This document shows, in pieces, positions 31,859 to 33,827 of a stretch of 57,377 bases of DNA (positions are counted from its first letter, which is position 1; each line of letters opens with the position of its first letter). A program made the position numbers and the translations under genes. The DNA lies in contig JAIXPD010000018.1 in NCBI GenBank assembly GCA_027486405.1, positions 1 to 57,377 of the forward strand. Reading direction: 5' to 3'. The notes below the pieces were generated by a model, which was not told where the DNA came from, ran no database searches, and saw only the letters and a list, made by a program, of their open reading frames with translations. Source of the stretch: Azospirillum sp. (GTDB lineage: Bacteria; Pseudomonadota; Alphaproteobacteria; Azospirillales; Azospirillaceae).

Positions 31859-32152
31859 ATGTCGTTCAGGCCGTTGCATGACCGCGTCGTCGTTCGGCGC
31901 GTCGCCCAGGAAGAGAAGTCCAAGGGCGGAATCATCATTCCCGACACCGCGAAGGAAAAGCCGCAAGAGGCGGACGTCATCGCGGTGGGTCCGGGCGTGC
32001 GCGACGACCAGGGCCGCGTCCATCCGCTGGGCGTGAAGGTCGGCGACCGCGTGGTGTTCGGCAAATGGTCGGGCACGGAAATCAAGGTCGGTGGCGAGGA
32101 TCTGCTCGTCATCAAGGAATCCGACATCGTCGGCGTCGTTGAAAACGCCTGA
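31859..32152 (+). CDS. groES: Co-chaperonin GroES without any internal Met or Cys
   Basis: This 97-aa protein caps the GroEL cage. Typical blocks are FRPLHDRVVVRRV, the mobile loop region EEKSKGGIIIPDTAKEKPQE and GDRVVFGKWSGTEIKV. The C-terminal block reads LLVIKESDIVGVV where alphaproteobacterial GroES usually has Met at two positions (LLIMKESDIMGV). No Cys and no Met remain besides the initiator. The ribosome site AAGGAGA is at 31844-31850. It is followed by groEL after 40 bp. It is almost certainly a second GroES beside a housekeeping copy elsewhere, by inference. Confidence 0.95.
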   Translation: MSFRPLHDRVVVRRVAQEEKSKGGIIIPDTAKEKPQEADVIAVGPGVRDDQGRVHPLGVKVGDRVVFGKWSGTEIKVGGEDLLVIKESDIVGVVENA

Positions 32153-32192
32153 CGCGCCTGTTTTCAAAAAGAACGGATAAAAGGGAATCATC

Positions 32193-33827
32193 ATGGCCGC
32201 CAAGGACGTCAAATTTTCCGCCGACGCCCGCGAGCGCATTCTGCGCGGCGTGGACATCCTCGCCAACGCCGTCAAGGTGACGCTGGGGCCGAAGGGCCGC
32301 AACGTCGTCATTGAAAAGTCGTTCGGTGCGCCGCGCATCACCAAGGATGGCGTGTCGGTCGCCAAGGAGATCGAACTCTCCGACCGTTTCGAGAATCTCG
32401 GCGCGCAGCTCGTCCGCGAGGTCGCCAGCAAGACCAACGATCTGGCCGGCGACGGCACCACCACCGCCACCGTGCTGGCCCAGGCCATCGTGCGCGAAGG
32501 GGCCAAGGCGGTCGCCGCCGGGCTGAACCCGCTGGATCTCAAGCGCGGCATCGACCGCGCCGTCGCCGCCGTGATCGCCGACGTGAAGGCGCGGTCCAAG
32601 ACGATTTCCGCGAACGACGAGGTGGCGCAGGTCGGCACCATCTCCGCCAACGGTGAACGCGAGATTGGCGAGATCATCGCCCGCGCGGTCGCCAAGGTCG
32701 GCAACGACGGCGTCATCACGGTGGAGGAGGCCAAGAGCCTGGAGACCGAACTGGACGTCGTCGAAGGCTTGCAGTTCGACCGGGGCTATCTGTCGCCCTA
32801 TTTCGTGACCAACGCCGAAAAGCAAATCGTCGATCTCGACAACCCCTACATCCTGATCCACGACAAGAAGCTGTCGGGCTTGCAGCCGCTGCTGCCGGTG
32901 CTGGAGGCCGTCGTCCAGTCCTCGCGCCCGCTGCTGATCGTCGCCGAGGACATTGAGGGCGAGGCGCTGGCCACCCTGGTGGTCAACAAGCTGCGCGGCG
33001 GGCTGAAGATCGCGGCGGTGAAGGCGCCGGGCTTCGGCGACCGCCGCAAGGCGATCCTGGAGGACATCGCGATCCTGACCAACGGTCAGGTCATCAGCGA
33101 GGAACTCGGCATCAAGCTGGAAAACGTGTCGCTGGCCGATCTCGGCACGGCCAAGCGCGTCATCATCACCAAGGAGGACACCACCGTCATCGACGGGGCG
33201 GGCGGCAAGGAGGCGGTCGAGTCCCGCATCGCCCAGATCCGCGCGCAGGTCGAGGAGACCACCTCCGACTATGACCGTGAAAAGCTGCAGGAGCGGTTGG
33301 CCAAGCTGTCGGGCGGTGTCGCCGTCATCCGCGTCGGCGGCTCCACCGAGGTCGAGGTGAAGGAGCGCAAGGACCGGGTGGACGACGCCGTCCACGCCAC
33401 CCGCGCCGCCATCGCCGAAGGCATCGTGCCGGGCGGCGGCGTGACGCTGCTCTACGCCAGCCGCGCCATCGACGCCATCGTCCCGGCCAACGCCGACGAA
33501 CGGGTCGGGGTGGACATCGTCCGCCGCGCGTTGCAGGCCCCGGTGCGGCAGATCGCCGAGAACGCCGGGGCCGACGGCTCGATCATCGTCGGCAAGCTGT
33601 TGAGCGGCGACGACGGCAATTTCGGTTACGACGCGCAGAAGGGCGAATTCACCGATCTGCTGAAGGCGGGCATCATCGACCCGACCAAGGTGGTGCGCAT
33701 CGCCTTGCAGGACGCGGCCTCGGTCGCGGGTCTGCTCATCACCACCGAGGCGCTGATCGTCGAGCGCGCCGAGGCGAAGGGACCGGCGGCACCGGTGGGC
33801 GCTGGCGGCGGCGGCTTCGACTACTGA
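32193..33827 (+). CDS. groEL: Chaperonin GroEL with no Cys and no internal Met (sulfur-free)
   Basis: This 544-aa chaperonin folds proteins in an ATP-driven double ring. It is complete and well conserved: AAKDVKFSADARERILRG, TLGPKGRNVVIEKSFG, GDGTTTATVLAQ (86-97, with Asp87), VVEGLQFDRGYLSPYF, KAPGFGDRRKAILEDIA and EGIVPGGGVTLL. Reading the whole protein, I find no Cys and no Met except the initiator. Positions that are Met in E. coli GroEL are replaced: Leu69, Leu73, Leu111 and Leu114, Leu in EGLQFDRG, Leu in QPLLPVLEAV, Ile in KAILEDIA, and Ala-Leu for Cys-Met in TTEAL. The usual Gly-Gly-Met tail is GAGGGGFDY. The fold-critical residues are kept, so this is selection against sulfur and not decay. 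Its place in the sulfur island suggests use in sulfur starvation. Confidence 0.96.
   Translation: MAAKDVKFSADARERILRGVDILANAVKVTLGPKGRNVVIEKSFGAPRITKDGVSVAKEIELSDRFENLGAQLVREVASKTNDLAGDGTTTATVLAQAIVREGAKAVAAGLNPLDLKRGIDRAVAAVIADVKARSKTISANDEVAQVGTISANGEREIGEIIARAVAKVGNDGVITVEEAKSLETELDVVEGLQFDRGYLSPYFVTNAEKQIVDLDNPYILIHDKKLSGLQPLLPVLEAVVQSSRPLLIVAEDIEGEALATLVVNKLRGGLKIAAVKAPGFGDRRKAILEDIAILTNGQVISEELGIKLENVSLADLGTAKRVIITKEDTTVIDGAGGKEAVESRIAQIRAQVEETTSDYDREKLQERLAKLSGGVAVIRVGGSTEVEVKERKDRVDDAVHATRAAIAEGIVPGGGVTLLYASRAIDAIVPANADERVGVDIVRRALQAPVRQIAENAGADGSIIVGKLLSGDDGNFGYDAQKGEFTDLLKAGIIDPTKVVRIALQDAASVAGLLITTEALIVERAEAKGPAAPVGAGGGGFDY

Follow-up and report, generated by a model that had tools for sequence, protein, structure and literature searches.

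A chaperonin pair without sulfur amino acids

The window, that is, the whole stretch of 57,377 nucleotides (nt) of Azospirillum sp. contig JAIXPD010000018.1, carries on its forward strand a groESL operon whose products contain no methionine (Met) beyond the initiator and no cysteine (Cys). The groES gene (31859–32152) lies upstream and encodes 97 amino acids (aa) with Ser as residue 2; after a gap of 40 nt it is followed by groEL (32193–33827; 544 aa, N-terminus MAAK). Translation of both frames gives one Met and no Cys in each protein, exactly as an earlier note on this DNA had claimed, and the sulfur-free chaperonin is real. A GTG at 31838, which would add one Met and one Cys to GroES, was considered as an alternative start and rejected: the AGGAG at 31845–31849 only follows it, and the start M-x-(F/L)-R-P-L in the 23 other sulfur-free GroES also counts against it.

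The pair resembles canonical alphaproteobacterial GroES and GroEL in family, length, gene order and the residues D52, D87 and D398. GroES scores 159.8 bits against NF001529 (cut-off 133) and GroEL 838.9 bits against TIGR02348 (curated cut-off 582.1); for the GroEL subfamily NF010704/PRK14104 the score of 909.9 bits stays below the cut-off of 1041. The top-scoring solved chain for GroEL is Cpn60 1iok (805 bits). D52, GDGTTT (86–91) and D398, which we take to be the ATPase motif and catalytic aspartates, are invariant across 34 aligned sequences, in line with the earlier statement that the ATPase motifs are intact. An AlphaFold2 model of GroEL built with 34 close sequences reached a mean predicted local distance difference test score of 53.7, too poor for use.

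The genome (5.49 Mb, 96 contigs, 94% complete) holds two GroEL and two GroES genes, so the window copy is not its sole groEL. The ordinary pair is encoded on contig C85, its GroEL with 17 Met and 1 Cys and its GroES with 3 Met. The two GroEL are about 81% identical, and many residues other than Met and Cys differ as well. Sixteen genomes have a sulfur-free-type (14) or intermediate (2) copy; 15 of them keep another full-length Cpn60, and G081 has only fragments. The chaperone families searched in the window's genome were Cpn60, Cpn10 and HSP70; one full-length HSP70 and no second DnaK were found, and sulfur-free members of other chaperone families may exist.

The Met replacements named in the earlier note hold in part when the genome's own ordinary GroEL is taken as the reference. 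M69L, M73L, M114L, M193L (in EGLQFDRG), M288I and M292I stand, as does M521L; L111 and L233 drop out, Leu being already present in the ordinary copy. Similarly, the proposed change of Cys-Met in TTECM to Ala-Leu loses its Cys part against the paralogue, which has TTEAM. The contrasts at L111, L233 and TTECM stand against E. coli GroEL. The Met columns of the ordinary copy are occupied mostly by Leu, Ile or Val in the window GroEL, by Gln or Asp in two cases, and in part of the tail by no residue; the C-terminal Gly-Met tail is gone, as had been proposed. Trp (0 in the window copy, 0 in the ordinary one), Tyr (7 and 6) and His (2 and 2) are nearly unchanged.

Loci were compared in sets of 24 sulfur-free and 30 ordinary copies without repeat records (L233 is the region of L199, and L238 lies inside L246), the intermediates L205 and L207 being kept apart. 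The ordinary control loci were hand-picked from matches, and for GroES and for the controlling inverted repeat of chaperone expression (CIRCE) they number 29, no GroES having been found in L264. The copy at L258, where GroES has no start codon at the aligned place, was counted as having a small residue and as CIRCE-free. Methionine aminopeptidase takes off the first Met where residue 2 is small. GroES has such a residue in 24 of 24 sulfur-free copies vs. 9 of 29 ordinary ones (mostly Lys there), so its initiator Met should be removable. Per GroEL14-GroES7 complex, the number of sulfur atoms goes from 273 with the genome's own ordinary pair to 21 with the window pair before trimming and to none after removal of the initiator Met. 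Judged by these N-termini, sulfur may be wholly absent from the mature sulfur-free complex.

Distribution, origins and selection

Met-free GroEL is not a general feature of the genus. Across the order, 82 genomes were sampled; a copy of the window type (about 88% identity or more) is present in 11 of the 45 Azospirillum genomes among them, one of these copies having a single Cys. The other groEL read in the same order (about 81% identity or less) encode 14–22 Met, two intermediates apart. The database search for GroEL with zero internal Met, as the earlier note had proposed, was productive: 66 of the best 130 proteins listed, a set taken from the head of a ranking and hence not a sample, have one Met and no Cys. 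Among the matches listed, the closest named relatives of the window GroEL are from Azospirillum, and the genus-named ones among the 66 belong to Azospirillum, Inquilinus, Nitrospirillum, Niveispirillum and Zavarzinia. A first lineage is formed by the Azospirillum, Inquilinus, Niveispirillum and Zavarzinia copies. Skermanella GroEL are intermediate with 4–6 Met, and Skermanella-related copies have up to 8. Two sulfur-free GroEL recorded under Lupinus albus (P0013) and Mycobacterium (P0069) are probably a contaminant and a misnamed record.

A second lineage was recognized from a plasmid GroEL of Methylobacterium sp. NMS14P, which has one Met and no Cys, yet is only 76% identical to the window copy, about the distance of ordinary alphaproteobacterial GroEL from it. 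A search with the Methylobacterium copy listed 118 new proteins, 26 of them with one Met and no Cys, from Methylobacterium, Labrys, Ancylobacter and others. Further sulfur-free copies are found on plasmids of Rhizobium (BT04, NXC24, K84, R. phaseoli, CB3171) and Mesorhizobium 113-3-3.

In a tree of rows hand-picked from matches and built without any Met- or Cys-holding column, the Azospirillum-type and Methylobacterium-type sets fall apart. Forcing both sets and four intermediates into one clade is worse by 130 log-likelihood units (approximately unbiased (AU) test, p 3.6e-5), which rejects a single origin of all sulfur-free groESL and points to at least two. The Gly-Met tail is absent in both lineages, and the same majority replacement is seen in both at 13 of 18 Met/Cys columns. 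A single origin within the first lineage, intermediates included, has a support of 69, and within the second lineage an AU p of 0.55; neither is shown or rejected. Inquilinus copies are not firmly joined to the first set in a larger tree, whose rows were likewise hand-picked and which also omits Met/Cys columns; given this placement and the undecided within-lineage origins, there may have been more than two origins. The larger tree also places the Rhizobium and Mesorhizobium copies beside those of Labrys and Methylobacterium, apart from ordinary Rhizobiaceae copies, which suggests transfer of sulfur-free groESL between genera.

Sequence evolution was simulated under LG+G4 from a Met/Cys-free root along the observed trees; since LG has no site preferences, the simulation is a rough yardstick. 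In the Azospirillum clade (38 proteins, at least 87% identical to the window copy), the simulations average 112 internal Met and Cys, with a minimum of 14 in 200 runs, whereas a single one is observed. In the Methylobacterium clade (21 proteins), 4 are observed against a mean of 47 (minimum 19). The sets exclude P0003, P0004 and P0143, which at 712, 734 and 629 aa are probably fused or run-on entries, the run-on P0005 (570 aa) and P0153 with its 12 Met; they include P0014, P0136 and P0139, clade members in which Met or Cys occurs. Because of this excess in the simulations, the two origins and the parallel replacements, the absence of Met and Cys is not put down to chance, and selection appears to keep the depletion.

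These data bear on the idea that the composition reflects drift or a compositional bias of a redundant, often plasmid-borne paralogue. All sulfur-free copies in the fetched named records of Azospirillum, Methylobacterium, Rhizobium and Mesorhizobium are indeed on plasmids, these records coming from a plasmid collection. Against this stand the simulations and the two origins with parallel replacements. In addition, six other plasmid GroEL that were read (Agrobacterium, Bosea, two Microvirga, Methylobacterium oryzae, R. rhizoryzae) hold 14–20 Met, and one Azospirillum sulfur-free copy lies on a 7.5-Mb contig (G007:C1), so not all copies are plasmid-borne. Drift is contradicted by these results and is highly improbable.

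Control region and neighbouring genes

Upstream regions were scanned with what we take to be the CIRCE consensus. A match within 3 mismatches ahead of groES is found at 0 of 24 sulfur-free loci, 22 of 29 ordinary ones and both intermediates. The best match has 8 mismatches in the window and 2 ahead of the genome's own ordinary copy; the window groESL thus does not pass as a CIRCE/HrcA-controlled heat-shock operon. The intermediates L205 (G105; 6 Met in GroEL) and L207 (G101; 4 Met), which keep CIRCE, have no marker sulfur gene within 9 kb; possible readings are that they regained Met or represent an arrested stage.

In place of CIRCE, a conserved block with CTAT-N7-GTAG stands ahead of the Azospirillum sulfur-free groES (CTAT-N7-GTCG in the window). 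The predicted operator CTATATTTACAGTCG (31759–31773, forward strand) has 2 mismatches to the dyad CTAT-N7-ATAG, and the orthologous groES sites CTATCTTTACAGTAG have 1. The dyad overlaps a predicted forward-strand promoter (31764–31793) with -35 box TTTACA, an 18-nt spacer and -10 box TACGAT, assigned by what we assume to be the promoter consensus; the same geometry of dyad, TTTACA box and spacer is present in 12 of 12 loci examined. A T-N11-A arrangement is typical of LysR-type regulators. An Rfam scan of window positions 15000–50000 gave no family at gathering score, and hence no known riboswitch there.

Exact dyads recur in the window at 27435–27449 (CTATCTATAAAATAG), 59 nt upstream of a cystine-type binding-protein gene, and at 35029–35043 (CTATAAATTCAATAG), between divergent tauD-like and ssuA-like genes. 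A one-mismatch dyad (56988–57002) lies 64 nt upstream of an acyl-CoA-dehydrogenase-like gene (55689–56924), whose product has 2 Met in all and no Cys. Other one-mismatch intergenic sites at 21789, 55601 and 57113 have no evident meaning. Intergenic regions of 13 sulfur-free Azospirillum loci contain 8 exact dyads and 36 with at most one mismatch (shuffle means 0.12 and 3.5); of the 36, the groES sites account for 12, and 24 lie elsewhere. The corresponding numbers in 16 ordinary loci are 0 and 5, and spacings of 5, 6 and 8 gave 2 sites each. For this test and for the composition of neighbouring proteins, genes were called with a custom GC-frame caller.

At 19 of 24 sulfur-free copies vs. 0 of 30 ordinary ones, a marker sulfur gene lies no more than 9 kb away (p 2.3e-10). 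Without the 7 sulfur-free loci that supplied marker references, the numbers are 12 of 17 vs. 0 of 30 (p 1.2e-7), and at loci with the full 9 kb on both sides 15 of 19 vs. 0 of 21. The neighbouring proteins themselves are sulfur-poor, a finding independent of annotation: their median Met+Cys content is 1.83% at sulfur-free loci vs. 3.18% at ordinary ones (p 1.2e-7), and 26 of 269 vs. 1 of 308 are 250 aa or longer and have no more than one internal Met or Cys. Some are identified by Pfam as TonB receptors or a peptide-type binding protein. TonB-dependent receptors beside sulfur-free groESL were seen at L204:3369-5864 (831 aa, no Met or Cys as called) and L206:4077-6335 (752 aa, 1 internal). The sole such case among the 308 is a TonB-dependent siderophore receptor (L243:14386-16584; 1 internal Met/Cys) beside the ordinary groEL of an M. 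oryzae plasmid.

In the window, groESL is flanked by a MetNIQ-like set and an OsmC-like gene on one side and by a TauD, SsuABC-like and monooxygenase set on the other. On the reverse strand, a polar amino acid/cystine-type ATP-binding cassette (ABC) transporter (24180–27376) comprises an ATPase (24180–24986), permeases (25008–26048 and 25778–26527) and a binding protein (26549–27376), its best NCBIfam matches being all under equivalog cut-offs. It is followed by MetI-like (28286–28942), MetN-like (28923–30053) and MetQ-like (30092–30931) genes (together 28286–30931, reverse strand, below curated cut-offs), the MetQ-like protein having no internal Met or Cys, and by an OsmC-like gene (30979–31587, reverse strand) divergent from groES. 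Beyond groEL, two reverse-strand genes encode TauD-like dioxygenases below the taurine-dioxygenase cut-off, one (34001–34927) with a single Met/Cys beyond the called start and the other (36264–37211) with none internally. Between them lies a forward-strand gene for an SsuA-family-like binding protein (35150–36184; 46.5 bits, cut-off 163.5; 1 internal Met). A nitrate/sulfonate/taurine-type ABC transporter (37283–40933, reverse strand, below curated cut-offs) consists of an ATPase (37283–38083), permeases (38109–38969 and 38912–39793) and an SsuA-like protein (39839–40933; 1 internal Met). Between this ssuA-like gene and an aldo/keto-reductase-like gene (window 40933–41094), CTATATCTATAGACATTATCAACATAG has dyad halves at spacings 4 and 13. 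Two flavin monooxygenases follow on the forward strand (42907–45458), one of the NtaA/DmoA family above cut-off (42907–44265) and one SfnG-like below it (44289–45458). In contrast to the sulfur-type genes of the window, the bioB gene at 20386–21369 encodes 9 Met and 8 Cys.

The operon has cysE and a family 2A encapsulin with cysteine desulfurase as neighbours on three Azospirillum plasmids (L233:16789-19597; L234; L235), and at L234 and L235 an exact dyad lies in the encapsulin-XRE intergenic stretch. The window groEL has no family 2A encapsulin match within 9 kb. In the available text of PMC8049743, the family 2A encapsulin SrpI with its cysteine desulfurase cargo is upregulated on sulfate starvation in Synechococcus.

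Taken with the absence of CIRCE, the dyads, GroES residue 2 and the second lineage, the sulfur-type neighbours and the sulfur-poor neighbour proteins support, at the level of sequence, the earlier proposal of a dedicated sulfur-sparing chaperonin. We consider it likely (probability about 0.8) that the second, sulfur-free groESL of the window is switched on in sulfur starvation and stands in for the sulfur-rich heat-shock chaperonin, and we strongly infer sulfur starvation as the trigger. A sulfur-responsive regulator would bind the dyad, GroES and GroEL would assemble into a working GroEL14-GroES7 foldase, and methionine aminopeptidase would recycle the initiator Met. Starving cells could in this way rebuild their chaperonin at low sulfur cost while the ordinary one declines. 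More broadly, Alphaproteobacteria probably invented a zero-sulfur GroEL/GroES at least twice, passed it on large plasmids and swapped heat-shock control for a sulfur-starvation operator.

The main rival is an oxidation-proof chaperonin, purged of Met and Cys against hypochlorite, peroxide and peroxynitrite and made for oxidative stress. Such stress would likewise select against both residues, and an OsmC-like gene adjoins groES. In addition, work cited in the available part of PMC13272141 indicates that hypochlorite inactivates GroEL and that Met sulfoxide reductases restore it. The nearly unchanged Trp, Tyr and His do not discriminate here. Oxidation resistance explains the composition but not the sulfur-type neighbours, the equally low sulfur content of some adjacent transport and dioxygenase proteins, the dyads ahead of sulfur transporter and tauD/ssuA-like genes, or a GroES residue 2 that permits removal of the initiator Met. 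We therefore regard it as unlikely.

Still less probable is a specialised chaperonin that folds sulfur-scavenging enzymes, its low sulfur content merely following from expression within the sulfur regulon. The same sulfur-gene neighbourhood agrees with this explanation, as do the loss of the Gly-Met tail in both lineages and the identity of about 81% to the paralogue. For bacteria with multiple chaperonins, the part of PMC11978752 that was available speaks of different client pools and asks about the role of the C-terminal tail in client selection. At odds with client specialisation, the neighbouring gene set varies by locus, and no constant client is visible.

Several observations weigh against a sulfur-sparing chaperonin under sulfur control. 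As said, oxidation would select for the same composition. The depletion is not complete everywhere, GroEL of L194 having 1 Cys and GroES of L195 having 1 internal Met. A CIRCE-like sequence with 4 mismatches, a relic, stands at L203 and L244, and 7 of 29 ordinary copies have no CIRCE within 3 mismatches. The groES site of the window is 2 mismatches off and falls outside the window's 6 listed intergenic dyad sites; the dyad test was made on Azospirillum loci, and some sites recur in syntenic ones. Site numbers are likewise raised at spacings of 1, 4, 13 and 15 (11, 29, 14 and 14 sites), so the dyad motif may hold more than one half-site arrangement. The sulfur-gene names in the window are nearly all below NCBIfam curated cut-offs (the NtaA/DmoA monooxygenase being above), and several marker matches at other loci are only 29–45% identical, which makes the substrates of the sulfur-type genes uncertain. 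A marker within 9 kb is absent at five of 24 sulfur-free loci (L193, L194, L198, L200, L240), 9 of 30 ordinary and 5 of 24 sulfur-free loci span less than 9 kb on a side, and many loci are syntenic relatives, so that the neighbourhood counts are less independent than the p-values imply. Finally, knockouts of SrpI or its cargo in Synechococcus are without growth defect according to the accessible part of PMC8049743.

Known systems and wider occurrence

The earlier note knew of no described sulfur-free GroEL, and none is described by the papers listed in full-text literature searches, which covered few subscription journals. The nearest precedent is sulfur-depleted phycocyanin, reportedly the protein of Mazel and Marliere 1989, the ordinary version of which is said to be kept alongside. 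The window operon is likewise a Met/Cys-purged paralogue with the ordinary copy retained. Unlike this cyanobacterial light-harvesting protein, it encodes a general folding machine in which both partners are purged, with two lineages and probable transfer between genera. As cited in the available portions of PMC4424289 and PMC10551891, Tolypothrix/Calothrix PCC 7601 makes an abundant protein in a Met/Cys-depleted version under low sulfate. Sulfur-poor proteins of sulfur limitation are also described in the accessible parts of reports on Gordonia oxygenases (PMC7661421) and on MetE of Rhodococcus IGTS8 (PMC8557817), a protein low in Met and Cys. These proteins acquire or make sulfur compounds, whereas no part in sulfur chemistry is known for a chaperonin. 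The SrpI encapsulin is an enzyme compartment and not a chaperonin, its homologues adjoining sulfur-free groESL on the three Azospirillum plasmids. From canonical GroES/GroEL the window pair differs in having no internal Met or Cys, no Gly-Met tail and no CIRCE, and in its sulfur-type neighbourhood.

Why many bacteria have several GroEL copies is a long-standing question, and one copy would get a definite reason if the proposed role is true; a general folding machine would then join pigment proteins and sulfur enzymes as a case of elemental sparing. Should the two proteins form a working foldase, the Gly-Met tail and some 17 Met would be dispensable in two lineages, which bears on their role, and a natural Met-free GroEL would be at hand for work on oxidation and for labelling.

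Among the 29 loci read (L164–L192) from a profile search of 387 alphaproteobacterial genomes, one copy (L164) is sulfur-free and the other 28 have 11–22 Met. A search of genome contigs with a DNA pattern of two Met-to-Leu changes gave at least 120 loci, mostly actinobacterial, with mostly 5–8 Met in the full-length GroEL. No full-length GroEL with one Met and no Cys was among the 120 matches listed, the gene being incomplete at several loci. Two full-length GroEL among the matches listed, at L092 (Kitasatospora) and L153, have 2 Met and 1 Cys and are possibly another depletion event.

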